NCBI GenBank assembly: GCA_022823225.1
Contig: JAJDXM010000063.1
Coordinates: 1-64,000, forward strand
Source of the DNA: Gemmatimonadota bacterium
GTDB lineage: Bacteria; Gemmatimonadota; Gemmatimonadetes; Longimicrobiales; Gaopeijiaceae
Direction: 5' to 3'
DNA length: 64,000 nucleotides
The stretch's first letter is position 1. Every line of letters begins with the position of its first letter. The position numbers were made by a program, and so were the translations under genes. The notes under the pieces are model-generated. The model was not told the origin of the DNA and did not search any database. It saw nothing but the letters and a program-made list of their open reading frames with translations. Below are positions 22,438-42,239 of this stretch, in pieces.

Positions 22438-23163
22438 TCACGCGGGTTCGTCGACTCGGTGCTGCATCAAACCCAGGCATGCCTCGCTTGTCAGGGGCCC
22501 CTCCCACCCCTCCGCAACCCGGGCCACCATCCCCGTCGCATTCGCGACCGCGAAGCTGATCCCGTTGAGGTTGCGCTCCCGGGGGACACCCGGGATCGGC
22601 CTCGGGTATGGCGCGGCGGCGACCACTTCGGACCGGCCGCCCTCTTCCCCCCGCACCTCCACGCACCCGCGCGGGCAACGCTCATCCGTCACCACGCCCA
22701 GCGCCTTTGGCAGCGAGCCCGGCCACCATCGCTGCCCGTCTGCCGTCGCCGCCGCCACAACCACGCCCCCGGCCGCCGCCAACCGGTCCACCGCCGCTTC
22801 CAGCATCGACGCGTGTTCTTCCCGCAGCGTGCCGAGACTCAGATTCACCACCCGCACCTCGCGCTCGGCGGCCCAGTCGATCGCGGCGACAAGCGCGCGC
22901 ACGCTCGTCCTCAGCCGGTCTGTGAATACCCGCAGCGCGAAGATCTGCGCCGCGGGCGCCTTCTCCTGAATGGCCGCGAAGACGGCCGTACCGTGCCCGA
23001 GCCGGTCCACGTAGTCCTCCGAGACCTCGCCCGACAACTCGATCCGCGCGCCGCCGGCCACCGCCCCGACGTGCGGATGCTCCGCGTTGACGCCGCTGTC
23101 GATCACGGCAACCGTCACGCCGCGGCCCCGGAGATCGTGCGCGCCGGGCGAATCGATGCACAA
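22438..23163 (-). CDS. qhpE: Small subtilisin-like serine protease, QhpE
   Basis: The product is 241 residues from a TTG at 23163, 14 bases after the DUF1801 stop. The triad is complete: Asp22 in VAVIDSGVN, His57 in DRLGHGTAVFA, Ser203 in LNGISFAVANATG. There is no signal peptide or pro-domain, unlike secreted subtilases. Such minimal cytosolic subtilases accompany QHNDH genes as QhpE, which cleaves the leader of the crosslinked gamma subunit. The usual oxyanion-hole asparagine after the VVAAA strand appears to be replaced (AAATADG). Assignment rests on size, fold and the other qhp genes nearby. Confidence 0.8.
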   Translation of the reverse strand: MCIDSPGAHDLRGRGVTVAVIDSGVNAEHPHVGAVAGGARIELSGEVSEDYVDRLGHGTAVFAAIQEKAPAAQIFALRVFTDRLRTSVRALVAAIDWAAEREVRVVNLSLGTLREEHASMLEAAVDRLAAAGGVVVAAATADGQRWWPGSLPKALGVVTDERCPRGCVEVRGEEGGRSEVVAAAPYPRPIPGVPRERNLNGISFAVANATGMVARVAEGWEGPLTSEACLGLMQHRVDEPA

Positions 23164-23177
23164 CCGGGTCGCCCCCC

Positions 23178-23588
23178 TCAGAATAGCTCCTCTCCGGGCA
23201 GCACGGCCGACTGTCTGATCCAGTTCAGCAGGAGGTCCTCGTCGATCTCGTCGTCCACGTGGATGTGGAAGTACCGCACATGCTCGTGCTTGGACGCAAC
23301 GGGCGGAGCGGGACGCAGCGAGGCACCGCAGAGCCAGGTCACCTTGATGTACTTCGTAAAGCAGTGGAAGGACAGAAACCAGCCCCGGCCCTCGATTCCG
23401 TAGAAGGGCGAGTTCCACCTGACCGCCTTGCGAACTTGCGGTGCGGCGCGCTCGACCAGCGCGTCGAGGCGGCGTCCGACCCCGCGCTTCCAGCCCGGCA
23501 TGGCCGCGATATAGGCTTGCACCGGCGCATCCCCGTCAGCCTTGGGAATCTGGGGGTTGCCGCCCGACAGGAGTCTCGGTTTCGCCAT
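23178..23588 (-). CDS. DUF1801 (YdhG-like) protein
   Basis: The product is 136 residues from ATG 23588 (MAKPRLLSGG); a TTG nine bases upstream is less likely. The DUF1801 pattern is clear: YIAAMPGWKRGVGRRLDAL, the KAVRWNSPFYGIEG core and a carboxy-terminal IDVDDEIDED-like acidic stretch. These are small cytosolic proteins of unknown biochemical function with a fold related to frataxin/YdhG. It precedes qhpE by 14 bases and probably shares its transcript. Confidence 0.82.
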   Translation of the reverse strand: MAKPRLLSGGNPQIPKADGDAPVQAYIAAMPGWKRGVGRRLDALVERAAPQVRKAVRWNSPFYGIEGRGWFLSFHCFTKYIKVTWLCGASLRPAPPVASKHEHVRYFHIHVDDEIDEDLLLNWIRQSAVLPGEELF

Positions 23589-23741
23589 GACAGACAATCA
23601 AGCCGGCGGCGGGCGGAAAGGAAACCCCCGGTCCGCGGATCTTTAGTCGGTCAGAACGGTATAAGTATGCCACCCGGCGCGTCGCCACGGCTCTCTTTGA
23701 ACCGGGCGCGATACTGTATTCGACATATTCGGGATCGAAAA

Positions 23742-24971
23742 ATGCGAAATAGTATATCAATTGGCCGTCTGACCGCTGTTGCTGTGGTGCCCTGCTCCTT
23801 TTCTCTCCTTTTCTCCACCGCCTGCGACGACTCCGCGGGCCCCGCCGGCGACGCCTTCACCACCTGGATCAGCGAACCGGAGTACAGCTTCGGCGACGCG
23901 CCCGAACACGAGGTCTTCTTCACGGTGCCCTTCCTCCGCGCGGACCCCTACCGGGACCGCATCCTGGTCCGCGACCGTGGCGACAAGCAGATCAGCGCAT
24001 GGACACCGGACGGCTCCCTCCTCTTCGTGGTCGGGGGGCCCGGGGAGGGGCCCGGGGAGTTCACCTCGCCCAGCCGCATCTACTTCGCGCCCGACGGCGG
24101 CTTTTCGGTGCGAAACGATTTCGGGATCCGGTTCACAAGCTACTCGGCGGACGGAGAGCACCTCGAAACGGTGTCGGCGCAGGATGGGACGCTCGAATAC
24201 GACGGCCTGATGCTCAACCTGGAAGCCCCCGCCGGCGACGGCTACCTGGGGTTCCCGCTGACATGGGCGGCGCTGGAACTCGGCGACCACGGCGATCCCC
24301 TCGAGCGCATCGCGGTGGTGCATGCCACCCGCTCCGAAGTCGGACAGCGGCGGGCTCCCGAACCGCTCTTCTGGATGGACATCGGCGGTCGGGTGCGAGA
24401 CACGAAATTCCCGGATGACAGTGGCCTGATCGGGGGCCAGCCGTTCACGGACGCCGACCAGGCGAGGTTCCTGCCGGGCGTGGCCGTGGTGATGCGCATG
24501 AGAGACCTGCCGCCCGGAGCCGTGGAGCTGATCGAGGTGAACGCAGAGGGCGATACGGTATGGCAGCGGCGCCTTCAGCTCGAGCCGCGACCGCTGACCC
24601 CGGCGCTTCTGGATGCGTGGATGGACGAACAACTCGAATGGATGTTGCCGGCCCGCTCCGAGTGGTCGGAGGACGAGGTTCGTGAAGCCCTGGACGCGTC
24701 CGTCCACAAGCCCGAATACCTGCCGGCCGCTACGGGGCTCGTCCTAACCGCGTCGGGCGAAGTCTGGGTCCGGACCAGCGAGGCCGAGGACACGCTCCGC
24801 GTCCACTACGCGGTGCGAAGAGGCGACGCCGACGGCGCGGCGCGGCGGGTCCTGCTGCCGGAATGGCTCGAAATCGAGGACGCGACCGACACCCATGTGT
24901 GGGGGGTCCGGCGCGACGAGATGGACCTGCCGCGGGTCACGGGGCGGAGGCTGGTACGGGCGGGCTCGTAG
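23742..24971 (+). CDS. Six-bladed beta-propeller lipoprotein
   Basis: The product is 409 residues. A lipoprotein signal ends at FSTAC (Cys28). The hallmark GEGPGE is at residues 101-106 in GGPGEGPGEFTSPS, and the closing region has RRDEMDLPRV. Blades are visible as repeated D-x-G-x-hydrophobic turns. It has the same architecture as the copies at 2916, 28384, 46608 and 51520. It sits on the plus strand between qhpE and qhpF and is convergent with qhpF. The upstream 80 bases are AT-rich for this window, but no convincing promoter could be fixed. Confidence 0.85.
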   Translation: MRNSISIGRLTAVAVVPCSFSLLFSTACDDSAGPAGDAFTTWISEPEYSFGDAPEHEVFFTVPFLRADPYRDRILVRDRGDKQISAWTPDGSLLFVVGGPGEGPGEFTSPSRIYFAPDGGFSVRNDFGIRFTSYSADGEHLETVSAQDGTLEYDGLMLNLEAPAGDGYLGFPLTWAALELGDHGDPLERIAVVHATRSEVGQRRAPEPLFWMDIGGRVRDTKFPDDSGLIGGQPFTDADQARFLPGVAVVMRMRDLPPGAVELIEVNAEGDTVWQRRLQLEPRPLTPALLDAWMDEQLEWMLPARSEWSEDEVREALDASVHKPEYLPAATGLVLTASGEVWVRTSEAEDTLRVHYAVRRGDADGAARRVLLPEWLEIEDATDTHVWGVRRDEMDLPRVTGRRLVRAGS

Positions 24972-25010
24972 CAGGCCGTACCGGAGGTCGCCCCCGGGGG
25001 CCCCGCAGGA

Positions 25011-26657
25011 TCACCCGCCCACCAACACCACCCGGTCCGCCACGCGGAGCAACTCCTCGCGGTGCGTGATCAGCACCGTCGTGCGGCCCCTCATTGCCTC
25101 GCGGTACGCACCCACCACCTGCGCTTCGGTCGCCGCGTCGAGCGCGCTCGTGGCCTCGTCGAGGACCAGGACGGCGGGGTCCGCCAGGAGCGCGCGCGCG
25201 ATCGCGACCCGCTGCCGCTCGCCCGCCGATAGCGCCTGTCCGCGCTCCCCGACAAGGGTGTCCAGTCCGTCCGGCAGCGCGGTGACGAAGGCGCCCAGCC
25301 CGGCCCGCTCAACCGCGCGCATCACCTCCTCGGTGTCGGCGTCGGGCCGGGCGTAGCGCACGTTCGCCAGGATCGAGGTGTTGAAGACGATGGCCGCCTG
25401 GTCGACCAGCGCCACCTGCGCCCGCAGCTCGGCCAGCGCGATGTGGCGGAGATCGGTGCCGTCGAGGAGGACGCGGCCGCGGTCGGGGTCGAGGTGCCGC
25501 ACGATCAGGTCGGCGACCGTGGACTTGCCGCTCCCGGACGGTCCCGTGAGCGCGACGATCTCGCCGGGTGGGATGGTGAGCCGGAAGTCCTCCAGCACCG
25601 CACCGCCCCGCCCGTGCCCGCACGACACGTCCTCGAAGACGATCTCGCCGCGCACCGGACCGAGCGCCACCGGCTCGGCCGCCTCTGCCACCTCGACCGG
25701 CTCGTCGAGCAGCTCGTGCACGCGCCTGAGCGACACCCGCGCCGACCCCAGCCCGGTGTAGAGTCCCATCAGCCCCTGCACGGGCCCGATCAGGCGTATC
25801 TGGTAGGCCATGAACGCCGTGAAGGTGCCCAGCGTGACCGCGCCGTCGATCACCCGGGAGCCGCCGTACAGGAACACGACCGCCGTGCTGGCCGACAGAA
25901 GCAGCGCGGGAAGCCCCCCGGCGAGGTAGCTGAGCCGCTGCATCCTCATCAGCGCGGCGACGAAGGAGTCGTTGCGGCGCCTGAACCGCTCGGCTTCGCG
26001 CTCGCCCGCGTTCGAGGCCGCCACCAGGCGCACCCCGCCCAGCGTCTCGATCAGGAAGGCGCCGATGCTCGCGCTCCGCTCGCGCATCACCCGCACCCGC
26101 ACCACCAGCCGCCGCCGGTACCGCACGATCGCCCAGATCGCCGGCGGCAGGAGCGCGGCCGCGGCCAGGAATAGGCGCCAGTCGAGCCAGAGCAGCATCC
26201 CCACCGTCCCGGCCAGGAATGCCACGTTCCCGAGCCACGCCAGCGCCGCGTCCGCGAGCACCCGCTGGATCTCGCTCACGTCGTTGTTGAGGCGCGACAT
26301 GATCTCGCCGAGCGGGGTGCGCGCGAAGAATCGGGGCGACAGCCGCTGCAGGTGCCGGTACACGGTCAGGCGCATGTCGAAGAGGATCTCGGCCGAGACC
26401 CTCGTGTAGCGCATCCCGCTGACGAAGTTCAGCACGAAACTGGCCACCGTGACCGCCGCGAAGAGGCCGACGATCCGCACCAGCGCGTCGCTGTCCTGCC
26501 CCAGCAGCGCGTCGTCGACGAGCGAGCGCGTGAGGAAAGGGATGTAGAGCGCGAGCGCGGTCCCGGCGAGATTGACGGCCAGGATAATCGCGAGACGGCG
26601 CTTGTAGGGGGTGACGTAGCGGAAGCCCCGCCGGATTTCCTGGTCGAGAATGGCCAT
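25011..26657 (-). CDS. qhpF: ABC transporter, fused permease-ATPase, QhpF-like exporter
   Basis: The product is 548 residues. The amino-terminal 300 residues form a type-I exporter membrane domain with about six spans; the carboxy-terminal half is the ATPase. Walker A is GPSGSGKST, the Q-loop region is VALVDQAA, the signature is LSAGERQRVAIARALL, Walker B is VLVLDEATSALD, and the switch region is VLITHRE. It lies directly downstream of qhpB and qhpC on the same strand. In known QHNDH clusters QhpF moves the crosslinked gamma subunit to the periplasm. By sequence alone it could be any small half-transporter; context drives the assignment. Confidence 0.8.
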   Translation of the reverse strand: MAILDQEIRRGFRYVTPYKRRLAIILAVNLAGTALALYIPFLTRSLVDDALLGQDSDALVRIVGLFAAVTVASFVLNFVSGMRYTRVSAEILFDMRLTVYRHLQRLSPRFFARTPLGEIMSRLNNDVSEIQRVLADAALAWLGNVAFLAGTVGMLLWLDWRLFLAAAALLPPAIWAIVRYRRRLVVRVRVMRERSASIGAFLIETLGGVRLVAASNAGEREAERFRRRNDSFVAALMRMQRLSYLAGGLPALLLSASTAVVFLYGGSRVIDGAVTLGTFTAFMAYQIRLIGPVQGLMGLYTGLGSARVSLRRVHELLDEPVEVAEAAEPVALGPVRGEIVFEDVSCGHGRGGAVLEDFRLTIPPGEIVALTGPSGSGKSTVADLIVRHLDPDRGRVLLDGTDLRHIALAELRAQVALVDQAAIVFNTSILANVRYARPDADTEEVMRAVERAGLGAFVTALPDGLDTLVGERGQALSAGERQRVAIARALLADPAVLVLDEATSALDAATEAQVVGAYREAMRGRTTVLITHREELLRVADRVVLVGG

Positions 26658-26724
26658 TCAGTGACGTTGGGCGCGGAGCGCCGCCTTCGCTACCCGTCCC
26701 GCCGAATCTGCCCCGCCAGCCCCC

Positions 26725-27876
26725 TCAACCCCCCCTCGGCCCAGTCCCCTCCGGGATCATCAGGAAGTGCGTCATGTCCGCGTCGAAGGTCACGGTGCGG
26801 ATGAACTCGTAGCTGTCCGCGTCGTAGATGTCGATCGTGGAGCCGGCGTTGTAGATGTACAGGAATTCGCCGTTCGAGCTGACCTCCAGGCTCATCCGCG
26901 GCCGGCCTCGGAAGCGCTGGCGGCTCTCAACCCGCCGGCCCTCGACATCGAAGGTCCAGAATTCGTAGTTCCCGATCTGCTGCACCAACCCGTACGCCTT
27001 TTTGCCGCCGGGCGCGAGGCGGAAGCTGACCCCCTGGCTGGGGCCCAGGGTGAAGAACTCGTACTCCTTCTCGGCCAGATTGACGCGCGCGATCCCCATC
27101 ATGCGCCGGTTCTGCACGGGATCGGTGAACCGCAGCAGGCTGGTGTAGTAGCCGGGATCGTCGTGGGGGCTTGAGGGGAACCCGAAGCTCAGGCGGCCCA
27201 GCCCTTCCTCCAGCGGGCGGGAGAGGTCCCAGCGGTCGACCTCGCTGAAGTCGTCCGGGTCCAGAACGCGGATCTCGGCGCCGAAGAAGTACAGGTACTC
27301 GCCGTCCGGAGAGAACATGAGACGCGCCCGCGAACGCAGCTCTCCGTCCGGCCACGGAATCGTGTCAGTGACCTCCCTGGACTCCAGATCGTACTTCAGC
27401 AGCGTCGGGTCGCCGATCTCCCAGCGGTCGATCTCCTTCGTGTAGCGCATCGTGTTGAGGATGACGAACTCCTCGTCGGGATCGACGGTCATGCCCCAGA
27501 TCCGCACCGTGGAGCGCCCGCTGCTGAGCGTGAAGCTGCCGATGGACTTGCGCGTCGCCACGTCCACGATCTCGATCTCCTCGAACTCGGCGTCGCGCAC
27601 GTAGATGCGCTCGTGGTCCTCCGAGAGGGCCAGCGAAGTGGGGATCCCGGTCGTCAGCTCGATCCGGTCGACGACCTCCATCGTGTTCTCGTCGATGACG
27701 TGGATCGCGTGGTCGTACCCGGCCATGTAGATGATGCCGTTGCCGCCGCCCTGGGCGTGGGCGGTCGGGGCGGTGAGGGCGAGGGCCGCCAGCACGGCCG
27801 CGGCCGCGAGCGGGCGGTGCGCTGCGCGCGTCCGGGCGCCCCCCGCCCGAAGGCCGCTCGCCGTTTCGGCCCTCAC
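26725..27876 (-). CDS. qhpB: Quinohemoprotein amine dehydrogenase beta subunit
   Basis: The product is 383 residues from a GTG at 27876, whose GTGA overlaps the stop of qhpC. A Sec signal peptide ends near AHAQG (about residue 42). The mature protein is a YVTN-type seven-bladed propeller: IIYMAGYDHAIHVIDENTM, TSLALSEDHERIYVRD, LMFSPDGEYLYFFG, LEVSSNGEFLYIYNAGST. Both sequence and location identify the QHNDH beta subunit, which packs against the heme and CTQ subunits in the periplasm. An ATG at 27924 would give an over-long arginine-rich leader, so GTG is preferred. Confidence 0.87.
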   Translation of the reverse strand: MRAETASGLRAGGARTRAAHRPLAAAAVLAALALTAPTAHAQGGGNGIIYMAGYDHAIHVIDENTMEVVDRIELTTGIPTSLALSEDHERIYVRDAEFEEIEIVDVATRKSIGSFTLSSGRSTVRIWGMTVDPDEEFVILNTMRYTKEIDRWEIGDPTLLKYDLESREVTDTIPWPDGELRSRARLMFSPDGEYLYFFGAEIRVLDPDDFSEVDRWDLSRPLEEGLGRLSFGFPSSPHDDPGYYTSLLRFTDPVQNRRMMGIARVNLAEKEYEFFTLGPSQGVSFRLAPGGKKAYGLVQQIGNYEFWTFDVEGRRVESRQRFRGRPRMSLEVSSNGEFLYIYNAGSTIDIYDADSYEFIRTVTFDADMTHFLMIPEGTGPRGG

Positions 27877-28307
27877 GGGAAGATCAGGTCGAGCTTGCGC
27901 CAGTCCTTCTGCGCGGACGCGCACTTCCCCGTCCAGTCGGGCGCGTGGTTCAGCTGATCAGGCACGTGGGCGGGCCAGAAGCAGGCCAGGTGGCAGTCGA
28001 AGAGGTCGCGCTCCACCGGCTGGCAGAGGCCCGCGGTGCCGCCGGTCGAGTCCACCTCCCAGCCGGGCGCGAAGACGAGGGAGCAGCCGAGGGGGATGTT
28101 CGGGCCGCTTTCGAGCGCGACGACGTCGAGGTCGGCGGGGTCGCCGGATGCGAGTGGGCTGTCGGGGGGGCCGCCGTTGCCCGGAGATGGCGCGGGCTCG
28201 CCTTCGGCTCCCGGGGCGCTGGCTCCGGATGCCTGGGCCCCCGCCAGCGCGTCGGTGTGCCCTTCGATCCGGCGTGCCTTCTGGTTGATGGCCTTCAGGT
28301 GGTCCAC
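27873..28307 (-). CDS. qhpC: Quinohemoprotein amine dehydrogenase gamma subunit (CTQ precursor)
   Basis: The product is 144 residues from a GTG at 28307, with GGAAGA seven bases upstream. A conserved leader start MDHLKAINQKARRIEG is followed by about 45 low-complexity Gly/Ala/Pro/Ser residues and then the core. All crosslink partners of known QhpC are in register: Cys75-Glu84, Cys95-Asp101 and Cys109-Asp117 for thioether bridges, and Cys105-Trp111 for cysteine tryptophylquinone. Cys129 is additional. It is modified by QhpD, QhpG and QhpE before export. The leader is much longer than the roughly 28 residues known in Paracoccus. Confidence 0.88.
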   Translation of the reverse strand: MDHLKAINQKARRIEGHTDALAGAQASGASAPGAEGEPAPSPGNGGPPDSPLASGDPADLDVVALESGPNIPLGCSLVFAPGWEVDSTGGTAGLCQPVERDLFDCHLACFWPAHVPDQLNHAPDWTGKCASAQKDWRKLDLIFP

Positions 28308-28383
28308 TGGTTCGTCTTCCTTGTTACACAGGGTAACCGGCTGGCACTCAACATTGGGGCGGTCCCTGCCCGCTCCGCAATAC

Positions 28384-29595
28384 TCAGCCCTTCAGCAGTC
28401 CGTAGAGTTCAAGGAAGGGAACCTCCATTTCGTCCGTCCTCGCGAGGAGTACGTAGTCATCCCCGATGTCCATCAGCTCCGACCCCGCGGGAATCGCGAC
28501 CTCGCCAAGCAGGCGGCCGTCGGCGAGAAAGACCTCGTACGTGTCGCGGCCGGTCCCCTCGTCGCCCACGGGCCAAAGCCCCACCCAGGTGTTTCCGCTT
28601 TGATCGACCAGCAGTGACCTGCCGCCGGAACTGTTCTCCGGGGCCGGGAAGGTCTCTTCCACAACCTCCGGGCCGACCTCCACCATGTCGGCCACCCTCC
28701 GGTAAAGGGCCGCGAGCGCCTCGCCCTCCGGCGCTCTCCTTACACCGTGCCGCCGCACGATGCGGAGCGTATCGCCGGCGGCCGTCATGAAGGTCAGCTC
28801 GTAGCGGTCACGACGCAGAGAAGCCAGGACCGGGGGCGACCCCCCCACGGCAACCCGGTCCGCCCGCTCGAACGGGTCGAAAACATGCCGGTAGAGGCCG
28901 TCGGGTCCCTGACGGTACGCGTTTCCCGGACCCGTGAACAGACCGACGGTATCGAAGCGTTCCCCTCTCCAATCCGCGCGCAACAGAAGGTATTGAGGCC
29001 TCTGGACGATGCCTTCGGCGGGCAGGCCTCCCAGCGGAATGAAGTCGCAAAGGAACACATCGTCGCCGTTGAAGGTCTGATCACAGGAGTACTGCTGAAG
29101 GGGTGTCCAGTCGAAGCGCTCGTCGGAAATCAGGTCGCCAGAGGAACTGAATCGAACGCGCTTGTCCTTCCCCCGGATCTGGACCCCACCAGCAAACCTC
29201 GACAATTCGTCGGCCCACTCGACTTCGCCGGGCCCCTCGCCCGGTCCACCCGCGGTGAACAGGTGCACCCCCTGACCATCGAAGAAGCGCAGATCCCGGG
29301 ACTGCCAATCGAGGACCACGATCGTGTCGGACGCGAGCCGCAGGGCCCCTGCAATCTCGGAGAACTGGTATTCCGCTTCACCCGATACGGCCCCGATCGT
29401 CACGGAGGGCTCAGGTGTGAGACGCCAGGCATCGCCACCGGGCGAGATCGCTTCCCACACGTCCACAACCGCGATTCCCGCCGAGTCTTCGATGGTGAAC
29501 GCGGGCCCATCGGTGGACGCGTCCCGGCCACCGCCATCTCCGCCAGTACACGCGCAGAGCAGCAGGCCGGCTGCGAGCGGTCTCAGGACTCGAAT
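28384..29595 (-). CDS. Six-bladed beta-propeller lipoprotein between qhpD and qhpC
   Basis: The product is about 403 residues. The family hallmark is present (AGGPGEGPGEVEWAD), as is the closing RTDEMEVPFLELYG. The amino terminus IRVLRPLAAGLLLCAC is a short lipoprotein signal with Cys16 as anchor. No ATG, GTG or TTG fits before it in frame; the plausible starts are ATT (29595) or CTG (29586), both overlapping the end of qhpD. Overlap implies translational coupling inside the qhp transcript. This is not a known qhp gene. Its role, if any, in amine oxidation is unproven. Confidence 0.75.
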   Translation of the reverse strand: MRVLRPLAAGLLLCACTGGDGGGRDASTDGPAFTIEDSAGIAVVDVWEAISPGGDAWRLTPEPSVTIGAVSGEAEYQFSEIAGALRLASDTIVVLDWQSRDLRFFDGQGVHLFTAGGPGEGPGEVEWADELSRFAGGVQIRGKDKRVRFSSSGDLISDERFDWTPLQQYSCDQTFNGDDVFLCDFIPLGGLPAEGIVQRPQYLLLRADWRGERFDTVGLFTGPGNAYRQGPDGLYRHVFDPFERADRVAVGGSPPVLASLRRDRYELTFMTAAGDTLRIVRRHGVRRAPEGEALAALYRRVADMVEVGPEVVEETFPAPENSSGGRSLLVDQSGNTWVGLWPVGDEGTGRDTYEVFLADGRLLGEVAIPAGSELMDIGDDYVLLARTDEMEVPFLELYGLLKG

Positions 29596-31031
29596 TGCTC
29601 CAGATACCCCGGGTTCCTGACCGCGATCTCGCCGTACACCTTCAGGCACGTATCCGTCCAGCTCCGGATCCAGTCGCAGTAGTGCAGGTTGGCCACGCCC
29701 GTGTCGCCGTAGCGGACGTGCGCCTCGTGGTAGCAGCCGCCGGCGCAGAGGGGCCGGGCCCAGCAGGTGTTGCAGTCGGTCTTGTTGGCGACGTGATGCC
29801 GTCCCAGGAACTCGAACTGGCGCTGGCGGTCGAGTCCCTTGTCCACCGACCCGATGCTGTGGTCGTCCGAGCCCGCGAACCTGTGGCAGAGCGCGACTTC
29901 GCCGTCCGTCGCCACCCCCATCAGCCCCAGCCCCGCCCCGCAGGGGAAGGCCTTGCTGACGCCCTTGTGGATCTCCTCGATCGTGTCCTTCACATTCGAG
30001 AAGCCGTGGTGGCGGTCCTCGACGGCGAACTGCAGGAACTCCTGCGCGAGCTCCTCGAACTGGCCGAGCATGCGGTCGAAGCCGGTGTCCTGGATCGCGT
30101 AGCCGCGCCCGTTGGCGGTCGTGACCGGCGCGAAGCCGACCTCCCAGAAGCCGATCTCGTTGCGCAGGTGGTGGAAGATGCGGGTCACGTTCAGCGTCTG
30201 GCGGGTGAGCGTCACGCGGGCCCCGATCGGGCGCGAGCGGTGGCGCTCCAGGAGCCGCCTGATCTTCGGCATCGCGTAGTCGTAGCTGCCCATCCCGTTC
30301 TTGAAGACACGGAACCTGTCCTGCATCTCCTTCGGCCCGTCGATGCTGACCGTCACCCCGACGCGGTTCTCCGCCAGCCAGTCGATCACCTCGTCGCGCA
30401 GCAGCGTGCCGTTGGTCGTGAGCGAGAAGTCGACGTCCTTCCCCAGCTCCTTCGCCCGCCGGCGCGCATAGGCGACCGTCTTCTTCAGCACCTTGAAGTT
30501 GAGCAGCGTCTCGCCGCCGAAGAAGGTGAGGTGCGCCACCGGCAGGTCGCCCGACTGCTCGAACATGAAGTCGACGCTCTGGCGCGCGGTCTCCTCGCTC
30601 ATGTAGTTCGGCGCGGGGTCGCAGGCCGTGTCGACGATCTTGTCCTCGCCGTACTCGTAGCAGTACGTGCACGCCAGGTTGCACTTGTTCGTGACGTTGA
30701 GGACCATCGTCGTGAGCGGAAAGTCGGCCTGCGGGAGGACGCGGGGGAAGGTCTCCTTCGGCGCGCTGGTGAGGCCGATCGCGCGGACCCGCATCAGTTC
30801 GGCCAGGCTGCGGCGCACGGTGGGTTCGCCGTGGTGGGGGGCGAGCGCGGCGATGATGGTGTCTTCGCTGGCCGGGCCGGAATCGAGGGACTGCAGGACG
30901 GCAAGCGAGGCCGGGTCGAGGTGGAAGACCGCCGCCGAGGGGACGAGGTACAGGAAGGTCTCGCCGCCGGCTTCGAAGGGGTGGAATTCGCGTTGGGCGA
31001 GGAAGGCGGGGTCTGTGGTGGGGGTGCTCAT
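29583..31031 (-). CDS. qhpD: Radical SAM/SPASM QHNDH maturase QhpD
   Basis: The product is 482 residues from ATG 31031. The radical SAM cluster motif CNLACTYC is at residues 117-124, with the SAM-binding GGE in LTFFGGETLLNF. The carboxy-terminal SPASM region has CGAG and CNTCWARPLCAGGC for auxiliary clusters. The amino-terminal 100 residues form the RRE-like/peptide-recognition part. QhpD makes the intrapeptide Cys-to-Asp/Glu thioether bonds in QhpC using SAM. It is the first gene of the minus-strand qhpD-propeller-qhpC-qhpB-qhpF series and is divergent from the ankyrin genes. Confidence 0.93.
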   Translation of the reverse strand: MSTPTTDPAFLAQREFHPFEAGGETFLYLVPSAAVFHLDPASLAVLQSLDSGPASEDTIIAALAPHHGEPTVRRSLAELMRVRAIGLTSAPKETFPRVLPQADFPLTTMVLNVTNKCNLACTYCYEYGEDKIVDTACDPAPNYMSEETARQSVDFMFEQSGDLPVAHLTFFGGETLLNFKVLKKTVAYARRRAKELGKDVDFSLTTNGTLLRDEVIDWLAENRVGVTVSIDGPKEMQDRFRVFKNGMGSYDYAMPKIRRLLERHRSRPIGARVTLTRQTLNVTRIFHHLRNEIGFWEVGFAPVTTANGRGYAIQDTGFDRMLGQFEELAQEFLQFAVEDRHHGFSNVKDTIEEIHKGVSKAFPCGAGLGLMGVATDGEVALCHRFAGSDDHSIGSVDKGLDRQRQFEFLGRHHVANKTDCNTCWARPLCAGGCYHEAHVRYGDTGVANLHYCDWIRSWTDTCLKVYGEIAVRNPGYLEQFES

Positions 31032-31170
31032 GACATGACAGTAGGGGAATGTGGCGCGGGGGGCCAGAGTAGGGACCGAGGAGGGGAGTGTTGTCGACGA
31101 ACGTGCAGGATAGCGGCCCACCACCTACACACTCCCGGACCCTGACCCGGCACCGCCGGGTATCACACGG

Positions 31171-31176
31171 TATAAT
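31171..31176 (+). promoter_or_regulatory. Probable -10 box of the ankyrin operon
   Basis: A perfect TATAAT lies 54 bases before the ATG of the first ankyrin gene, in the 198-base gap shared with qhpD. No good -35 hexamer is seen at standard spacing. A GGAGGA ribosome binding site follows at 31220-31225. Confidence 0.45.
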
Positions 31177-31229
31177 GGGATGACCCGGATTCAACCGCCC
31201 CAGGGCACCAGAGGCACTTCGGAGGAACC

Positions 31230-34200
31230 ATGAAAGAGTTCGCTCTGGCGGGTCATCGGCCAGTTGTTGCGGGCGTCCGCTCGGCCTCCTTCTTTGCCCT
31301 GGTTCTCCTCCTTTGCCAAGCCTGCGCCGCTGCCCCCACCGCAGACCCGGGAACCGCGCGCGCCGCCACCCCAGCCACCACCACCCACCCCACCTGCGAC
31401 CATTGGGGCTCGATCGACTTCTTCCGCGATGCCACCCCGCAACTGGTGCGCGAGTGCCTCCAGGCGGGCGCGGACCCCAACGGCCCCCCGGGGGTGTACC
31501 CCCTGCCACCCCTCTTCGTCGCGGCCGCGCGGTCGCCGCATCCGGTCGTCATCCCGATACTGGTCGATGCCGGAGCAGACGTGGCCGCCCGCGAATGGGG
31601 CGACCTCACTCCCCTGCACGAGGCCGCGGGTCAGAACACGAACGCCGGGGTCACAGCCGCGCTCCTGGAGGTGGGGGCGGACCCGAACGCGCGGGATCGG
31701 GACGGGATTGCCCCGCTGCACCTGGCGGCGAACAACAACAGCAACCCGGATGTCGTCACCTTCCTGATCGAGGCTGGCGCCGACCCCAACACCCGCGATC
31801 CATACGGCAACACGCCCCTTCACCTGGCTTGGGCCGACAGCTGGTTTGATCGCCGCCCGGTCATGCGCGAACTCCTGCGTCTGGGTGCCGATCCACTCGC
31901 CCGCAACGATGCGGGAGAGATCGCCGACCAGACCCACTGCGACAACTGGGACGCGGGCTACTTCGCCTCTTCGGCGCTCCCTGCCGACTACGTGCGCTGC
32001 CTCGACGCGGGTGCGGACCCCAACGCACGCGATGGCGAAGGGCAGATGTTGCTCCACCGGGCTTTGGAGAACCGAAACCCGGAGGTCACCGCCCTGTTGC
32101 TGGACGCTGGCGCGGACCCCAACGCTGCGGGGCTTGGGGGTCCCCCGCTCATGCGGGTGATCTGGCTTAATTCCCGGCGCTACAGTAGTCCCGACCCCGC
32201 GATTGCAAGTGAACTGGTCCGGCTACTTCTGGCTGCGGGCGCGGACCCCAACGGGGATAGGTCCAGAACCGGGACGCCGTTGCACAGTGCCGCTAGCCAG
32301 GGGGCTGCAGAACTGGTTGGCATGTTGCTGGAGGCCGGCGCGGATCCGAACCCGCCGACTCGGCGCTGGGAGACATCGCCGCTCGCCGCTGCCACCCGAT
32401 CCGGCCACACCGAAGTCATCCGGCTCCTGGAAGCCGCCGGAGCCGAAGCCGACTCCCGGACCGGGAACGAATCGATGCGCGAGCGTCGAGCCCCGGCGGG
32501 GGAAACACTCCCCGACGACCCCGACTACCCCTGCGGCGACACGGAATTCCTTGAGTTTGCCCCGCCCGAGAGCCTGCACGCCTGCCTGGAAGCCGGCGCC
32601 CGGTTCGACGAACCCGTCTCCCGGTTGACCCCACTCTCATTCCTGGCCAGAGAGGGTGGTGCAGCCGTCCCCGAGAAGATCGCCCTCCTGCTGGCGGCGG
32701 GCGCGAATCCAAACACGGTCGATGACCAAGGGCGGACGACGCTGCACCTGCTCGTCGGGCGGGAGTCGGGGGACGACGCTGTTGGGCGGATCACCGTCCC
32801 GGCTTTGCTTGACGCGGGTGCCGACGTGAACGGGCGCGACGACCGAGGCCGAACCCCCCTGCACGACGCGGTGGAGGCGGCCGTTCGGGGGGGAACACTC
32901 GCACAGGACGCGAGCCATGTGATCCGGCTGCTGCTGCGGGCTGGCGCGGATGCGAATGCGCGCACGCACCTCGGCGAAAGTCCATTGCACATCGCAGCGT
33001 CTGTGCCCACTCGCAACGCGACGGACGTTGCCCCCGTGATTGCCGCCCTGCTCGAGGCCGGCGCGGAGATCGATGCCAGGACCGAAGACGGGCGGACGCC
33101 GTTGCATTTGGCCATCCAGACGAACCGGCCCGCCGCTGTACTACCGTTCCTCGAAGCAGGCGCGGATCCGGCGCTTCGCGACGACGCGGGGAACCTTGCC
33201 GATCCGACCACCTGCGAGCACTGGGGCAAGGCGGTGTTCTTCGCGACTGCCGACGCAGATGTCATCGCCCGTTGCATTGAGGCCGGGGCGGACCCGGTTT
33301 CACCAGTGGAAGCGGCCGCACAGCACAGGGCTTCGCTTCTCCATTTCGTTTCCGGCCACGCCCGCGATCCCGCAGTGATCACTGCCCTCGTGGAAGCGGG
33401 CGCCGACGTCAACGCACGCGACGTATGGGGATTCACGCCCCTGCATTCTGCCGCGGAGAACGCCACGCCCGCCGCCGTGCAGGCACTGGTCCAGGCCAGC
33501 GCCGACGTCAACGCGCCGTTGAGATCGTTCGGCCGCGGTTTGGACTCCCGGGGAGGACGGACCCCGCTGCACATTGCGGCGTCCAACCCCAACCCGGAGG
33601 TCGTCGCCGCGCTGATCGAAGCCGGCGCAGATGTCGGCGCGCGCGCGGGCACTTGGACCGGCACCCCCCTGCACCTCGCTGCGCGGAACCCGAATCCGGC
33701 GGTGGCGGCGCTGTTGCTGGACGCCGGTGCCAACGTGCACGCACGGGAGTTGGCAAGGACCTATTCGCCGTACGGGCTGACCGTGAGCAGCGTGGACGAG
33801 ACCACCCGCCGGCTGGGTGGAATCACCCCGCTGCACGGGGCGGCGTGGCTGAATCCGAATCCGGAGGTCCTCGCCCTGCTCCTGGAGGCCGGAGCGGATC
33901 CCGGAGCCCTGGCATGGAGGACCGAGGACCACCACCGTGCGGAACGGCGGAGCGACAACCCCCACTACCAATGGTCGGGGAATGTAACTCCCCTTTACGA
34001 CGCGGCCCGGTTCAGCGCCGATCGCGCAGCCGTGGAGACTCTCGTCGCAGCGGGCGCCGACGTGAATGGTCGCGGAGCGCAGTTGACCTTTCATCCCCGG
34101 CAGCAGGCCACGTCTCCCGACCCGCACCTGTCGCCTCTCTATCTGGCGGTTCGGGGGGACGGGCACCCCGCCACAATCGAGGCCCTGGTGCGCGCGGGTG

Positions 34201-34412
34201 CCGACCTCGAGCTGACCGATCCGGACGGCCGCACCGTGCTCCACGTGGCGGCGATCGGCTACCCAGCCGTCTTCCCCCTCCTCCTGCGCCTGGGTGCCGA
34301 CCCCGAAGCCCTCGACGCCGACGGCAAGACGCCCATGGATTACGCGAGGGAAAACTACATGCTGCAGCCTTGGGAGCGGGTCAAAATGTCATCTCCGCTT
34401 GGCCGAAGGTAA
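31230..34412 (+). CDS. Giant exported ankyrin-repeat protein 1
   Basis: The product is 1,060 residues. A signal sequence around residues 18-32 (SASFFALVLLLCQAC) suggests export, possibly as a lipoprotein at Cys32. The rest is nearly continuous ankyrin repeats of the TPLH(L/A)A...LLEAGADPNAR type. Four times the array is punctuated by a module with paired cysteines: 56/76, 237/257, 435/452 and 662/682, each in a C-x-x-W or similar context followed by C(L/I)xAGA. Such cysteine pairs suit an oxidising compartment. It is followed seven bases later by a paralogue with the same plan. The binding partner is unknown. Confidence 0.85.
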   Translation: MKEFALAGHRPVVAGVRSASFFALVLLLCQACAAAPTADPGTARAATPATTTHPTCDHWGSIDFFRDATPQLVRECLQAGADPNGPPGVYPLPPLFVAAARSPHPVVIPILVDAGADVAAREWGDLTPLHEAAGQNTNAGVTAALLEVGADPNARDRDGIAPLHLAANNNSNPDVVTFLIEAGADPNTRDPYGNTPLHLAWADSWFDRRPVMRELLRLGADPLARNDAGEIADQTHCDNWDAGYFASSALPADYVRCLDAGADPNARDGEGQMLLHRALENRNPEVTALLLDAGADPNAAGLGGPPLMRVIWLNSRRYSSPDPAIASELVRLLLAAGADPNGDRSRTGTPLHSAASQGAAELVGMLLEAGADPNPPTRRWETSPLAAATRSGHTEVIRLLEAAGAEADSRTGNESMRERRAPAGETLPDDPDYPCGDTEFLEFAPPESLHACLEAGARFDEPVSRLTPLSFLAREGGAAVPEKIALLLAAGANPNTVDDQGRTTLHLLVGRESGDDAVGRITVPALLDAGADVNGRDDRGRTPLHDAVEAAVRGGTLAQDASHVIRLLLRAGADANARTHLGESPLHIAASVPTRNATDVAPVIAALLEAGAEIDARTEDGRTPLHLAIQTNRPAAVLPFLEAGADPALRDDAGNLADPTTCEHWGKAVFFATADADVIARCIEAGADPVSPVEAAAQHRASLLHFVSGHARDPAVITALVEAGADVNARDVWGFTPLHSAAENATPAAVQALVQASADVNAPLRSFGRGLDSRGGRTPLHIAASNPNPEVVAALIEAGADVGARAGTWTGTPLHLAARNPNPAVAALLLDAGANVHARELARTYSPYGLTVSSVDETTRRLGGITPLHGAAWLNPNPEVLALLLEAGADPGALAWRTEDHHRAERRSDNPHYQWSGNVTPLYDAARFSADRAAVETLVAAGADVNGRGAQLTFHPRQQATSPDPHLSPLYLAVRGDGHPATIEALVRAGADLELTDPDGRTVLHVAAIGYPAVFPLLLRLGADPEALDADGKTPMDYARENYMLQPWERVKMSSPLGRR

Positions 34413-34419
34413 AGAGAAG

Positions 34420-37400: not shown

Positions 37401-37857
37401 GGCCGGGGCCCACGTACACGCGCGAGGATCGTACCGCACCGCCCACGACCCGCCCGGCCGGCTGACACCCCTGCACTCCGCAGCGAACTGGAACCGCAAC
37501 CCGGAGATCGTGACGCTGCTCGTCGCCGCGGGGGCGGACCCCGATGGAGGGTTGGCTCGGGCAGTCGTTCCCCGGTCGCCCGTCAGCTTGGCCGCCTTCA
37601 CCAACGGCAACCCCGCCGTGCTAGAGGCACTCCTGCACGCGGGCGCGAGCCTGGATCTGGCCGACTCCGAAGGCCGCACCGTCCTGCACCACGCGGCGAT
37701 CACTTTTCCCGCTGCCTTCCCCCTCCTGCTGCGCCTGGGCGCCGACCCGGAAGCGCGCGACGTGGAGGGGAAGACGCCCATGGACTACGCGAGGGAGAAT
37801 CCGGCGCTCAATCCCTGGGAGCGAGTCAGAATGTCAACTCTGCTTGGCAAAAGGTAA
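34420..37857 (+). CDS. Giant exported ankyrin-repeat lipoprotein 2
   Basis: The product is 1,145 residues from ATG 34420. It has a clean lipoprotein signal, FLLLPLLVAGC, with Cys25 as anchor. Ankyrin repeats fill the rest, interrupted by cysteine-paired modules at 41/61, 220/240, 601/620 and 781/801. The carboxy terminus GKTPMDYAREN then NPWERVRMS is almost the same as in the upstream paralogue (QPWERVKMS), so the pair arose by tandem duplication. Both stops are followed by AAGAGAAG. It is likely cotranscribed with ankyrin 1 and displayed on the cell surface or in the periplasm. Confidence 0.87.
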   Translation: MTTRGQPKPFGSATFLLLPLLVAGCTATPAPSSPTPASPPCDGWGAFTFFESATPQDVRECLEAGANLNDPFWGQVFHTAARYSPDPAVIDVLIEAGADLYAHNSEGGTPLHSAAAGNTHTGVIAALLEAGADPNARDLDGLTPLHMAAHTNDNPDIVTALVQAGADPSARGPAGLTPLHMAWNQRWPGIRPAAVRELLRLGADRLARGDLGQIADPTHCDHWTTATFAQLAVPTDFIRCLELGADILARDDQDNTPLHRATQNDDASVLAVLLDAGADLEARNRRGHTPLHSAISHGNLTAMTALLAAGADIEADAGGFYRTPLNYAALRITRSVKERNEVTITLIEALLEAGADVNTADERGDSPLVKALRYGLPDGPSTPRSDSIADAVADLALKLLAAGADPGAQGRSGSTPLHEAAEYKPPILVQAMLDAGADPDLRNGAGNSALHSAARSGSVEVIELLINAGAQVNVRNRSGMSPLHSAVLSGRTSMIAVRTPTLETGPWLQRAAALLEAGADPNLADANGDTPLHFAAQVFDTALVSLLADAGAAVNTLNDGGETPLQAARNHANAAVARKLVDIGADPVALEGTGGIDGPFCALDAFMFVILAPPETLRDCLAAGFSINTPDWADLTPLVQLVRFGSTRGAPEKVALFLAAGADVNARNSRGETPLHRAARRESPDTASMESLLLEAGADVNARANDGQTPLHLAASLDHIPVVAVLLEAGAEVDARTNAGHTPLHLALLGGRRAAAATLLEAGADPDARDGDGRLVDPASCERWGTETFFVFATADVVAACLEAGADARAIRPQPDPPVLPDGWIVRPRRPSTPLHMAAAQTRDPIVITALVEAGADVAARDNGDYTPLHKAAETGTPGVVRALLEAGAEVDARPQGFDRGFSSGRNTPLHNAARNPDPAVAGALLEAGAEVNARGRDGITPLHYAAWNRNPAVAELLLEAGAEVNARSSRGLTPLHRAASGNSNPAVLSVLLEAGAHVHARGSYRTAHDPPGRLTPLHSAANWNRNPEIVTLLVAAGADPDGGLARAVVPRSPVSLAAFTNGNPAVLEALLHAGASLDLADSEGRTVLHHAAITFPAAFPLLLRLGADPEARDVEGKTPMDYARENPALNPWERVRMSTLLGKR

Positions 37858-37946
37858 AGAGAAGGCGACACACGGCAGTTCGATGACGCTGCCACGTCTT
37901 GGGGCCAAGCCGCCGAGCGACTACCCCTGGCGTCGACAACTTCCCC

Positions 37947-39752
37947 CTAACTCCCGTCCGTCCGCCTCGGCAGCACCAGCGTGATGTCCCCGATCCGCCA
38001 CGGTTCCCAGCGCATGTAGAGCGGCACCGTGACGATCAGGTGGGCCCGCCCGCGCACCTCCTCGCCGTCGGGGCCGTGCCAGGTCGCGACCACCCACACG
38101 TCGCCGATGTTGTTGCGCATGCCGCTGCGCTCGGGGTTGGGGCCGTCGATCGCGGGATGGAAGAGGCCGCCCTCGTCCAGCGTCCCGATGTACTCGATGT
38201 CGTCGTCGTCGAAGACCGCGGCGTATTCCTCGACGCTCCAGGTCACGTCGACGTGGCCGAGCGGCAGGTCGTCCCCGGTTTCGGGGTCGCCGTCGGGGCC
38301 GTTGCTGTAGGCGGTCGCCTCGAACTGGGCGAATCCCTTGGGGAAGTTCCCGCCACCGACCCGCGCCATCCCCGCCTCGGGCGTCACCGCGATCCGGTCG
38401 ATGGTCTCGTAGACGGTGAACGCTCCCGGGACAGGCTGGCCGGCCAGGAACACATCCCGGGCGCCCGCAGCGGCGTCCTCGGCAGCCGCCACCTCCGCCG
38501 TGAACCGGTCCGACCCGCTCTCGACGACGCGCACGAGCTCCACACCGGGTCCCAGATCGACATCGTCGGGGCCCAGCCCCTCGGCCAGGTTCACCCCGTG
38601 CACGGTCACGGTCGCCGTCGTCCCGGCACGCACCGCCACCGGATGCAGCCCCGACAGCACCGGACCGTTCGCGCGCACGAGCTTCACATCCGGCCCGAAC
38701 TCGTCGTAGGCGCCCATGAACCAGCGACCGTTGATCTCGTTCCAGCCGCGCTCGACCATCATCACCTCGCGCAGCGCCGTCTCCTCGTCCCCTCCGACGA
38801 AGGAGCGACCGCGCCACTGGTAGCCGGTGTAGACGATCGTCCGGCCGTCGCGCTCGATCCGCTCGCCCGTGCGCACATACTCGTAGCGGAGCCGGGTGAT
38901 GAAGCTGGACGCGTCTGCCCCCTCCGCGATCTCCACCGTCCCGTAGATGGGCCCGAATCCCGGATCGTGACCGCTGAGCGCCCACGTTCCCGCGATCCGC
39001 GGCGGCCGCTTCGTCGCCGACCAGGCCGTCCACTCGGGAGTCACGAGCGGGAACTCGCCCGACAGGTGGCGCACCGCGGCGTCCTTCGGATGGCCGGAAC
39101 TCGCTCCGAACCGCATGAACCCCTGGCCGTCCGAGAGCGGGTAGTAGCCCCGGTGCGTCGCCATCAGCAGGTCCCATTCCTCCCGGGTCCGACGCTGGGT
39201 GATGACCCGTCCCATGGAGTGGCACTGGCTGCAGGTATCCTCCACATCCTCGTCCGGCTCGTAGCTCCAGTCGATCAGCCGCCGCTCGACCTCGAAGCGG
39301 CCCGGCCGGAGCTCCTCCGGCGCGATCCCGTGATTGTCCGACAGGTAGCGGACGATGTCGCGCGCCACCGCCTCGTCCAGCTCCACGTTGTTGAGCGTCA
39401 CCATGCGCCGGATCGACTGCTGCCACCCCTCCGGAGTCTTCCGCATGTAGGAGATGCGGGTCATCATGCCGTCGTCGTCGACCGCATGGCAGCGCTGGCA
39501 GGCGTCGATGACGGTCTCGTTGGTAACGGGGATGCCTTCGTCGTCCCCGTCGTCGCCGTTCTGCTGGGCAGTGGCGAGGGCGGGGATCGTGAGGGAGAGG
39601 AGGACGGCGGCTGGGAGCCTCCGGGACACGAACGCCGAGCACGGGCGCGAGACCGGCCGCGCACCAGAAGGCCGCCGGCCCGAGAGCCGGGGTCCGGGAA
39701 GTTGACGCAGCGCCCGCTCCGCACCGCTCCGACCAGCCATGAGAGGTTTCAT
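37947..39752 (-). CDS. qhpA: Quinohemoprotein amine dehydrogenase alpha subunit (diheme)
   Basis: The product is 601 residues from ATG 39752 (an alternative lies at 39740). It has a long amino-terminal extension, then a signal core LLSLTIPALATAQQ. Two c-type heme motifs are CQRCH (85-89) and CSQCH (174-178), forming the diheme domain. The carboxy-terminal two thirds are beta-sandwich/barrel domains with GEFPLVTPEWTAWSA and later Ig-like repeats, as in QhpA. It accepts electrons from CTQ in the gamma subunit and passes them to a periplasmic carrier. It is separated from the other subunit genes by the ankyrin pair. Confidence 0.9.
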   Translation of the reverse strand: MKPLMAGRSGAERALRQLPGPRLSGRRPSGARPVSRPCSAFVSRRLPAAVLLSLTIPALATAQQNGDDGDDEGIPVTNETVIDACQRCHAVDDDGMMTRISYMRKTPEGWQQSIRRMVTLNNVELDEAVARDIVRYLSDNHGIAPEELRPGRFEVERRLIDWSYEPDEDVEDTCSQCHSMGRVITQRRTREEWDLLMATHRGYYPLSDGQGFMRFGASSGHPKDAAVRHLSGEFPLVTPEWTAWSATKRPPRIAGTWALSGHDPGFGPIYGTVEIAEGADASSFITRLRYEYVRTGERIERDGRTIVYTGYQWRGRSFVGGDEETALREVMMVERGWNEINGRWFMGAYDEFGPDVKLVRANGPVLSGLHPVAVRAGTTATVTVHGVNLAEGLGPDDVDLGPGVELVRVVESGSDRFTAEVAAAEDAAAGARDVFLAGQPVPGAFTVYETIDRIAVTPEAGMARVGGGNFPKGFAQFEATAYSNGPDGDPETGDDLPLGHVDVTWSVEEYAAVFDDDDIEYIGTLDEGGLFHPAIDGPNPERSGMRNNIGDVWVVATWHGPDGEEVRGRAHLIVTVPLYMRWEPWRIGDITLVLPRRTDGS

Positions 39753-39932
39753 CCGACCGATTGCTTTCCGTTTGGGAGGGATGGAGTATTCGTGCTTGCC
39801 GGTTTCGGCGACTGATTGAGTTAACAGGCTGATCGCAGACTTCGCCAGCCCGCACCAGGATCGGAGCAAGCCGCCGGTGCCACCGGGCGCTTCCGTTGCG
39901 GCCCGTCTCCAACGACGTACCACGCACAGGAA

Positions 39933-39974
39933 TTGACCACCGGTTCTTGATTCTGATACCATATTGTGGTATCA
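39933..39974 (+). promoter_or_regulatory. hicAB promoter and operator
   Basis: A TTGACC at 39933-39938 and a TACCAT at 39957-39962 are spaced by 18 bases. A perfect inverted repeat TGATACCA/TGGTATCA (39954-39961 and 39967-39974, five-base spacer) covers the -10 region, just before the hicA start. It is the probable binding site of the HicB ribbon-helix-helix domain. Confidence 0.7.
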
Positions 39975-39980
39975 TCGCTG

Positions 39981-40235
39981 ATGAGGCGCAGGCACCGCGA
40001 GACGCTCGAAATGCTCTTCGCCCATCCGGTCAGCGGCAACATACCCTGGCGGCGAATCGAAGGGCTGTTCGCTGAGCTGGGCGCGGAGATCAGCGAGCGG
40101 AAAGGATCCCGCATCGGCGTGAGACTGTTTGGCGACCGACGGGTATTCCACCGCCCGCATCCATCGCCGAACGCCGATGTCGGCGTGGTCGTCAGCATCC
40201 GGAATTGGCTTCGACGGAATGGAGTGGAACCATGA
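39981..40235 (+). CDS. hicA: HicA-family toxin
   Basis: The product is 84 residues from ATG 39981; a GTG at 39966 lies within the operator and is less likely. The sequence shows the HicA dsRNA-binding-like fold of the longer subgroup: TLEMLFAHPVSGNIPWRRIE, ERKGSRIGVRLFGD, then VFHRPHPSP. HicA toxins cleave mRNA at the ribosome or free. Its stop overlaps the hicB ATG (ATGA), the normal hicAB coupling. Confidence 0.85.
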   Translation: MRRRHRETLEMLFAHPVSGNIPWRRIEGLFAELGAEISERKGSRIGVRLFGDRRVFHRPHPSPNADVGVVVSIRNWLRRNGVEP

Positions 40236-40564: not shown

Positions 40565-40577
40565 GCCGACTCCGGGA

Positions 40578-42239
40578 TCAGGTCCCACCTCCCCCCGGCA
40601 CCAGCACCCCATCCGCAACGAGCAGCGCGATCACGCTGATGAAGTTGCCCAGGTCCACCGGGGGCAGATCCTCGCGGGCCGCCCACTCGGTGTACGTCTC
40701 GAAGAGCACGCCGGGGTTCGCGCACCCGGGGGCGAGGTGCACGACCCGCAACAGGTCGACATCGCGAAAGTAGCGGACGCCGCCGGGGAAGCGCGGGGTG
40801 ACCAGGGACGGCGCCATCCGGATCCGGTTTCCGATGACCAAGGGGCACTCGACGGTCTTGCGGGATCCGATCCGCAGCCGGCCCGAGCCAAGCCGCAGGG
40901 CGTGAAAGGCCGCCCGGACTTCCGCGTCGTCGCGGAGTTCCTCGGCGCCCGGACCGTCGGGCGAATTGGCCTCGGCTCCATCTTCCGGCCGGTCGGCGAG
41001 CCAGCGGGCGCGCTTTTTCCAGAAAGCGTCCGGGGCCGTCGCCGTCTCGCTTCCCGTCCCGCTGCCCGTGGGCCTCGCGGCGGTTTCCACCTCCTGCCCG
41101 CCCGCGAGCACACCCCCGGTCCGCGTCCCCGCGACCTGTACCGCGAGCCCTTCCCGCATCGACCGGTACATCGCCCGCTCCCGCTGGCTGAAGAATTCGG
41201 TCGCAATCCCCGCCAGCTCCGGCGTCCGGATCGCCGTGTGGACCGCCACCGCCGCGAGCCACCCCGAGGCCAGCGCCTTCTTCACCCCGTACGACGACAT
41301 CGGGTCGGCGAAGGAGGCGGCGTCGCCCACCAGCAGCGCCCGCCCCGGGGCGAACTCGGACGAAGTGTACATCGACGCGGTCACAGCCCAGGCGTCGCCG
41401 GTCGGCACGGCGGGTTTTGTGATGGAGGACATGAGGGCGGTGTTGGCAATCTCGGCCTCGAAGGCCGACGAGAGGTCGGCGGCCCCCTCCATCACGGCCT
41501 GTAGGCGAGGGTCCACCATCACCGCCACATGGCGTTCCTCGTTCGAGGTCGGGACGGACCAGGCCCAGCCGCGCTCGAAGCTCTCCACCAGGGCGTGCGC
41601 GGGGTCGACATTGCTCCAGCCGCCGTCCCTCCGGTACCGCCGCACGACCGCGAGCGTCGGCGCGCCGGCCTCCATCACCCTGTAGCGCCGCCCCACCACC
41701 CCCGCCCGCCCCGTGCAGTCCAGCACCCAACCCGGGACGATCTCCGCGCGCCCCCCGCCATCCAGCGCGACCACCACCCGCCACCCCTCCCCCTCGCCAT
41801 CCCGTTCCGGCATCCGCGCCACCCCCCCCACGATCTCCGCCCCGGCCTCCGCCGCCGCCTCACGCAGCACGCGGTCGAACCGGGACCGCAGCACATGGAA
41901 CCCGGTGGCGCCCCCCGCGAAGTCGTCGCGGCGCCCCTCTCCGCCCCAAAGCGCGGTATTCCCCCCGTTCGGGTGAAACCCCGCCGCCTCCACAACCCCC
42001 AGCAGCCCCGTCGCGCCCAGGACCTTGCGCGTACTCGGCGGCAGCGACTCGGCGAGCGATTGGGCGCCCGCCGCGCGGCTGGCACCACCCAACTCCCGCT
42101 GCACCACCACGACCTCCACCCCCCACTGCGCAAGCAGCCGCGCAGACGCCGCCCCGGCGGGACCGCCACCGAGGACGAGCACCTGGGGATCTGTCGTCAC
42201 GTTGCCGCGTCCGTCGTCTGCGGCTGCCTGGTTCGTCAT
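40578..42239 (-). CDS. qhpG: FAD-dependent monooxygenase QhpG
   Basis: The product is 553 residues. The amino-terminal FAD motif is VLVLGGGPAGAASARLL (about 20-36). The class-A flavin monooxygenase/halogenase region PGRALLVGDAASFADPMSSYGV follows, with the GD motif. The carboxy-terminal 150 residues form an extra domain (CPLVIGNRIRMAPSLVTPRF). In characterised clusters QhpG dihydroxylates the tryptophan of the thioether-linked gamma subunit, building CTQ. The middle (about 395-450) is a Gly/Ala/Thr-rich low-complexity insert. It is identified by architecture plus the complete qhp set nearby. Confidence 0.85.
   Translation of the reverse strand: MTNQAAADDGRGNVTTDPQVLVLGGGPAGAASARLLAQWGVEVVVVQRELGGASRAAGAQSLAESLPPSTRKVLGATGLLGVVEAAGFHPNGGNTALWGGEGRRDDFAGGATGFHVLRSRFDRVLREAAAEAGAEIVGGVARMPERDGEGEGWRVVVALDGGGRAEIVPGWVLDCTGRAGVVGRRYRVMEAGAPTLAVVRRYRRDGGWSNVDPAHALVESFERGWAWSVPTSNEERHVAVMVDPRLQAVMEGAADLSSAFEAEIANTALMSSITKPAVPTGDAWAVTASMYTSSEFAPGRALLVGDAASFADPMSSYGVKKALASGWLAAVAVHTAIRTPELAGIATEFFSQRERAMYRSMREGLAVQVAGTRTGGVLAGGQEVETAARPTGSGTGSETATAPDAFWKKRARWLADRPEDGAEANSPDGPGAEELRDDAEVRAAFHALRLGSGRLRIGSRKTVECPLVIGNRIRMAPSLVTPRFPGGVRYFRDVDLLRVVHLAPGCANPGVLFETYTEWAAREDLPPVDLGNFISVIALLVADGVLVPGGGGT

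Follow-up and report, generated by a model that had tools for sequence, protein, structure and literature searches.

The window analysed here, 64,000 nucleotides of contig JAJDXM010000063.1 from a Gemmatimonadota bacterium, holds a full qhp gene set (qhpA, B, C, D, E, F, and G) on its minus strand, although QhpB and QhpG score below the cut-offs of their models and the cluster is interrupted (Table 1). Within the cluster (22438–42239), two plus-strand ankyrin-repeat genes separate qhpA from qhpD, a propeller gene sits between qhpD and qhpC, and one plus-strand gene and one DUF1801 gene lie between qhpF and qhpE. Two same-genus loci (L039 and L046) have a contiguous G-A-D-C-B-F order, unlike the window. 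About 4.2, 4.4, and 1.0 kb of extra DNA are present between qhpD and qhpC in L037, L038, and L024/L043, respectively; the two genes are adjacent in nearly all other genomes of the genus.

Table 1. Genes of the qhp cluster and features of the qhpC product, in window coordinates.
Feature	Position	Strand	Basis or remark
qhpG-like flavin monooxygenase	40578..42239	(-)	NF049967 best match, 211.9 bits, below cut-off 240
qhpA, di-haem alpha subunit, start approximate	37947..39962	(-)	TIGR03908 468.7 bits, cut-off 274
qhpD, radical SAM/SPASM maturase; N-terminal domain RRE-like; start probably the ATG at 31031	29583..31031	(-)	TIGR03906 561.3 bits, cut-off 453
qhpC, gamma subunit of quinohemoprotein amine dehydrogenase, 144 aa, GTG start	27873..28307	(-)	NF037958 and PF08992
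qhpC leader start motif, residues 1–16 (MDHLKAINQKARRIEG)	28260..28307	(-)	Predicted binding site for QhpD's RRE-like domain
qhpC spacer, residues 17–59, rich in Ala/Gly/Pro/Ser; disorder predicted past about residue 28	28131..28259	(-)	Codon comparison and structure model
Predicted QhpE site LDVVA64/L65, residues 60–65	28113..28130	(-)	Aligned to VVA28/M29 of the P. pantotrophus precursor
Crosslinked core, residues 75–144, four pairs	27876..28085	(-)	Direct reading and alignment
Cys129 to Asp135 (C-X5-D), candidate fourth Cys-acid thioether	27903..27923	(-)	Conservation counts
Divergent qhpB-like beta subunit; actual start lies downstream of the ORF start	26725..27924	(-)	TIGR03907 56.7 bits, below cut-off 223.2
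qhpF, ABC exporter	25011..26657	(-)	PF00664 and PF00005; comes after qhpB in relatives
qhpE, subtilisin-like protease, start approximate	22438..23178	(-)	NF049966 167.2 bits, cut-off 165

The qhpC open reading frame, read from 28307 down to 27873, scored 119.6 bits against the QhpC equivalog model NF037958 (cut-off 50) and 114.1 bits against the Pfam family QH-AmDH_gamma, PF08992 (cut-off 25); with both scores above cut-off, the resemblance to QhpC is not a matter of chance. Its translation revealed the pairs Cys75-Glu84, Cys95-Asp101, Cys109-Asp117, and Cys105-Trp111, and alignment showed that their spacings of 9, 6, 8, and 6 are those of the solved subunits 1jju_C and 1jmx_G. The eight crosslink positions were invariant across 53 classical and 98 five-cysteine QhpC sequences. 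The original prediction of a genuine gamma subunit with all four pairs conserved at these spacings was therefore borne out, as was the position of the frame, which had been given without a strand and lies on the minus strand. Judged by profile, crosslink pairs, and gene set, the frame is a true QhpC; the thioethers and the CTQ cofactor of the mature protein are predicted. One same-genus QhpC (L235) has Trp in place of the crosslink residue Cys95, which may be a draft-assembly error.

Compared with QhpC of Paracoccus and Pseudomonas (1jju, 1jmx), the protein has the same three Cys-Asp/Glu pairs and the same Cys-Trp pair at identical spacings, an NxKA leader motif, and a predicted cut site comparable to the known [DE]V.A before Met. 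It differs in its predicted leader (64 residues versus 28, or 25 in a few), in its number of core cysteines (five versus four), and in the mature stretch before the first cysteine (10 residues, 10–22 in its lineage, versus 6–7); a few extra residues also separate the two at the C-terminus. What is known here is a member of the QhpC family, and what differs is the leader length, which does not define the family, and the fifth cysteine.

A leader of this length in a low-complexity, GC-rich stretch of a draft genome of 97 contigs could be an artefact of annotation or assembly, and a later start near residues 55–60 in related genomes would have made it one. The frame, however, has in-frame ATG, GTG, or TTG only at codons 1, 85, 98, and 115, so that no start exists near residues 55–60, and a later translation start is ruled out by the absence of any such codon across codons 2–84. 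A Shine-Dalgarno-like AAGGAAG precedes the GTG, the same leader motif follows a start codon in relatives, and close relatives have leaders of 54 residues. We consider an artefact barely credible, and the long leader stands as originally proposed.

Conserved at both ends (MDHLKAINQKARRIE and DVVAL), the leader has between them a fast-changing spacer of Ala, Gly, Pro, and Ser (31 of the 43 residues at 17–59, in agreement with the Gly/Ala/Pro/Ser-rich stretch first described between leader start and core). Model confidence was about 50 over most of this spacer. Compared codon by codon with L019 and L020, both close relatives, the start motif, residues 60–74, and the core changed synonymously only; in the spacer, 12 of 33 aligned codons differed in amino acid from L019 and 15 of 33 from L020, with insertions and deletions in addition. 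This pattern indicates selection on both ends of the leader and little on its middle. Within residues 1–16, described earlier as conserved, Asn-8, Lys-10, and Ala-11 were invariant among 53 aligned QhpC.

To place the end of the leader, we relied on the Paracoccus pantotrophus precursor, in which residue 29, following VVA28, aligns to residue 1 of the mature chain 1jju_C. This matches the published 28-residue leader of known QhpC (PMC7876137). Each of the 53 classical QhpC has [DE]V.A with Met as the next residue, and almost every five-cysteine QhpC has DVVA or DVVG with Leu in that place; in total the cut-site motif was kept in 53 + 114 sequences. By this alignment, QhpE is predicted to cut at DVVA64/L65, which would give a leader of 64 residues.

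The characterised 28-residue leader is therefore not matched in the window. The earlier contrast of about 65–70 residues with about 28 was right in that the leader is long and that known QhpC has 28 (PMC7876137; 1jju_C alignment), and its length is corrected to a predicted 64. Classical QhpC, a set drawn mostly from one family, had leaders of 28 residues in 49/53 and 25 in 4/53. Leaders of five-cysteine QhpC ranged from 20 to 64 residues (median 33), that of the window being the longest in a sample that is uneven and favours close relatives, its contig scan having kept the best 80 of 572 confirmed hits. Even among 19 genomes of the genus, the predicted length ran from 25 to 64. Since members recognised by the same profile span 20–64 residues, a 28-residue leader does not define the family, and with variation this wide the 64-residue leader is the extreme of a variable trait. 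The long leader had been thought to raise the questions of where QhpE cuts and how QhpD recognises the peptide; it poses little mystery for either enzyme, because the cut site can be aligned and leader length is free across the whole lineage.

The structure model of QhpD (pLDDT 90.9) displayed strands and then three helices over residues 10–81, resembling an RRE, the N-terminal domain looked for in the maturase of an RRE-guided, ranthipeptide-type substrate. Its best structural match was CteB (5wgg, Z 39.6, aligned residues 14–470); CteB (5wgg, 5why) is the nearest solved structure over the whole length of QhpD, RRE included, and unlike QhpD it modifies a peptide, the thermocellin precursor CteA. 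In CteB, the leader joins the RRE sheet and extends it (PMC6231123). By profile, PapB lies close to QhpD (280 bits); it tolerates a poly-Ala spacer between leader and core (PMC9413430), and in the PapB system an RRE contact has been proposed for a conserved leader Asn, Asn-8 being the invariant one in QhpC. For known QhpC, QhpD binding needs the leader (PMC7876137). The freyrasin system PapA/PapB shares with QhpC and QhpD the leader-guided formation of Cys-to-Asp/Glu thioethers by a radical SAM enzyme, Cys placed before the acid, and a tolerated leader-core spacer; unlike QhpC, an enzyme subunit with a quinone cofactor, PapA is a short peptide natural product with the native motif CX3D.

Taken together, the RRE-like domain of QhpD, the leader contact in CteB, and the spacer tolerance of PapB lead naturally to a tether role, and the RRE-like domain probably holds the conserved leader start. 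We propose that leader residues 1–16 would be bound by this domain, while the variable and mostly disordered spacer (residues 17–59) would serve only as a tether, giving the core access to the QhpD active site. QhpD would then join the core cysteines to acids in three pairs of known type, possibly with a fourth between Cys129 and Asp135; Trp111 would be hydroxylated by QhpG, the leader cut by QhpE at DVVA64/L65, and the subunit exported by QhpF. The identity of the gene, its conserved pairs, the two-ended leader, the hypervariability of the spacer, and the conservation of Cys129 within a single lineage are direct results; the QhpE cut site, the RRE binding, and the order of steps are inferred by homology. 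We put this reading, a QhpC precursor of the five-cysteine lineage matured along this path, at roughly 80%, a figure that leaves the fourth thioether aside.

If the spacer is only a tether, its length should hardly matter. A compensating change in the RRE-to-radical SAM stretch of QhpD was rejected, that stretch showing no significant correlation with leader length (Spearman 0.20, p 0.13). The spacer could instead have a specific job, for example in QhpG binding or in slowing QhpE, and it is retained, though altered, in most genomes of the genus. Against such a job stand the 25–64 range of leader length within the genus, the mostly amino-acid-changing substitutions with insertions and deletions, and one same-genus member in which the spacer is nearly absent, which together make it unlikely.

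The presence of a fifth cysteine at residue 129 was confirmed on the translation, and the view that it has no obvious partner does not hold, as two candidate acids lie downstream: Asp135 at +6, the known Cys27-Asp33 spacing, and Asp140. Cys129 was found in 115/115 sequences of the five-cysteine lineage versus 0/53 classical QhpC. Wherever it occurs the downstream acids are invariant, Asp135 in 115/115 and Asp or Glu at position 140 in 115/115; classical QhpC has Asp135 in 41/53, with Asn or Ser in the other 12/53, and mostly Gly or Gln at position 140. The lineage occurs in Gemmatimonadota, Acidobacteriota, sphingomonads, and a few bins labelled Gammaproteobacteria. A tree of QhpD recovered the same two groups as QhpC, split by one long branch with support 100/100, so that the Fisher p of 4e-7 for the contrast between the lineages does not count independent events.

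Our leading hypothesis for Cys129 is that QhpD of the five-cysteine lineage installs a fourth thioether, Cys129-Asp135, which would bring the gamma subunit to five crosslinks counting Cys-Trp. The conservation of both residues, the lack of a conserved partner cysteine in QhpA and QhpB, and the behaviour of PapB make it plausible: PapB crosslinks CXnD motifs with n 0–6, to completion for n 1–5, and not those of reversed order (PMC9413430), and Cys129-Asp135, a CX5D motif with Cys first, falls within this range and order. We hold it tentatively, at slightly less than an even chance. By our rough estimate an acid would stand at one of the known spacings by chance about one time in three, and the always acidic position 140 is a rival acceptor for Cys129. 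The structure model of the QhpC core, with a pLDDT of about 45, is too poor for the Cys129-Asp135 geometry.

Alternatively, Cys129 could stay a free thiol, conserved for structure or packing, the rest of maturation proceeding as proposed. Asp135 is common in classical QhpC that have no Cys129, which implies another role for this acid as well, and many other core positions are equally invariant; because the five-cysteine core is conserved throughout (1/115 has lost Cys95), the invariance of Cys129 alone is weak evidence of a crosslink. Yet a strictly conserved free cysteine would be unusual for a periplasmic subunit, and QhpD, the maturase of this very protein, joins cysteines to downstream acids. 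We regard a free thiol as a serious competitor, itself somewhat short of an even chance. Cys129 might also form a disulfide, its partner being a different subunit or a second copy of gamma; this would suit the oxidising periplasm in which the gamma subunit works, and the two conserved cysteines of classical QhpB indicate that disulfides may occur in such complexes. In the five-cysteine lineage, however, mature QhpB is free of cysteine in 85/100 and mature QhpA has no cysteines beyond the four haem ones in 70/74, with no other conserved cysteine column in QhpA (n = 74) or QhpB (n = 100). In the window itself, the four mature cysteines of QhpA all lie within two CXXCH motifs, and the mature part of the QhpB-like protein contains none. 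A disulfide of Cys129 with either of these subunits was rejected when no conserved partner cysteine was found in QhpA or QhpB; a gamma-gamma bond would still be conceivable, and a disulfide of either kind is, in our judgement, very unlikely. Both conserved cysteines of classical QhpB are missing from QhpB of the five-cysteine lineage, whose copy in the window falls far below the TIGR03907 cut-off.

No description of the five-cysteine QhpC lineage was found in the openly accessible literature searched. Within the literature covered, this is a broad and uncharacterised sub-lineage of quinohemoprotein amine dehydrogenases, whose extra cysteine may be part of an unrecognised post-translational crosslink. 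Within one genus, leaders of 25–64 residues precede near-identical cores, a natural series in which the tether model of RRE-guided modification could be tested directly and in which the parts of a RiPP-like leader that matter are told apart from those that do not.

An extra cysteine near the C-terminus of QhpD (residue 462, numbered from the ATG start) is invariant in the five-cysteine lineage, 47/47 versus 0/14 classical QhpD. In one same-family genome (L236), only the 3' half of qhpC is present, fused to unrelated sequence and followed by qhpB; this could reflect breakage of the gene or a join made in assembly. Another genome (G404) has two classical qhpC copies (L123 and L129) about 30 kb apart.
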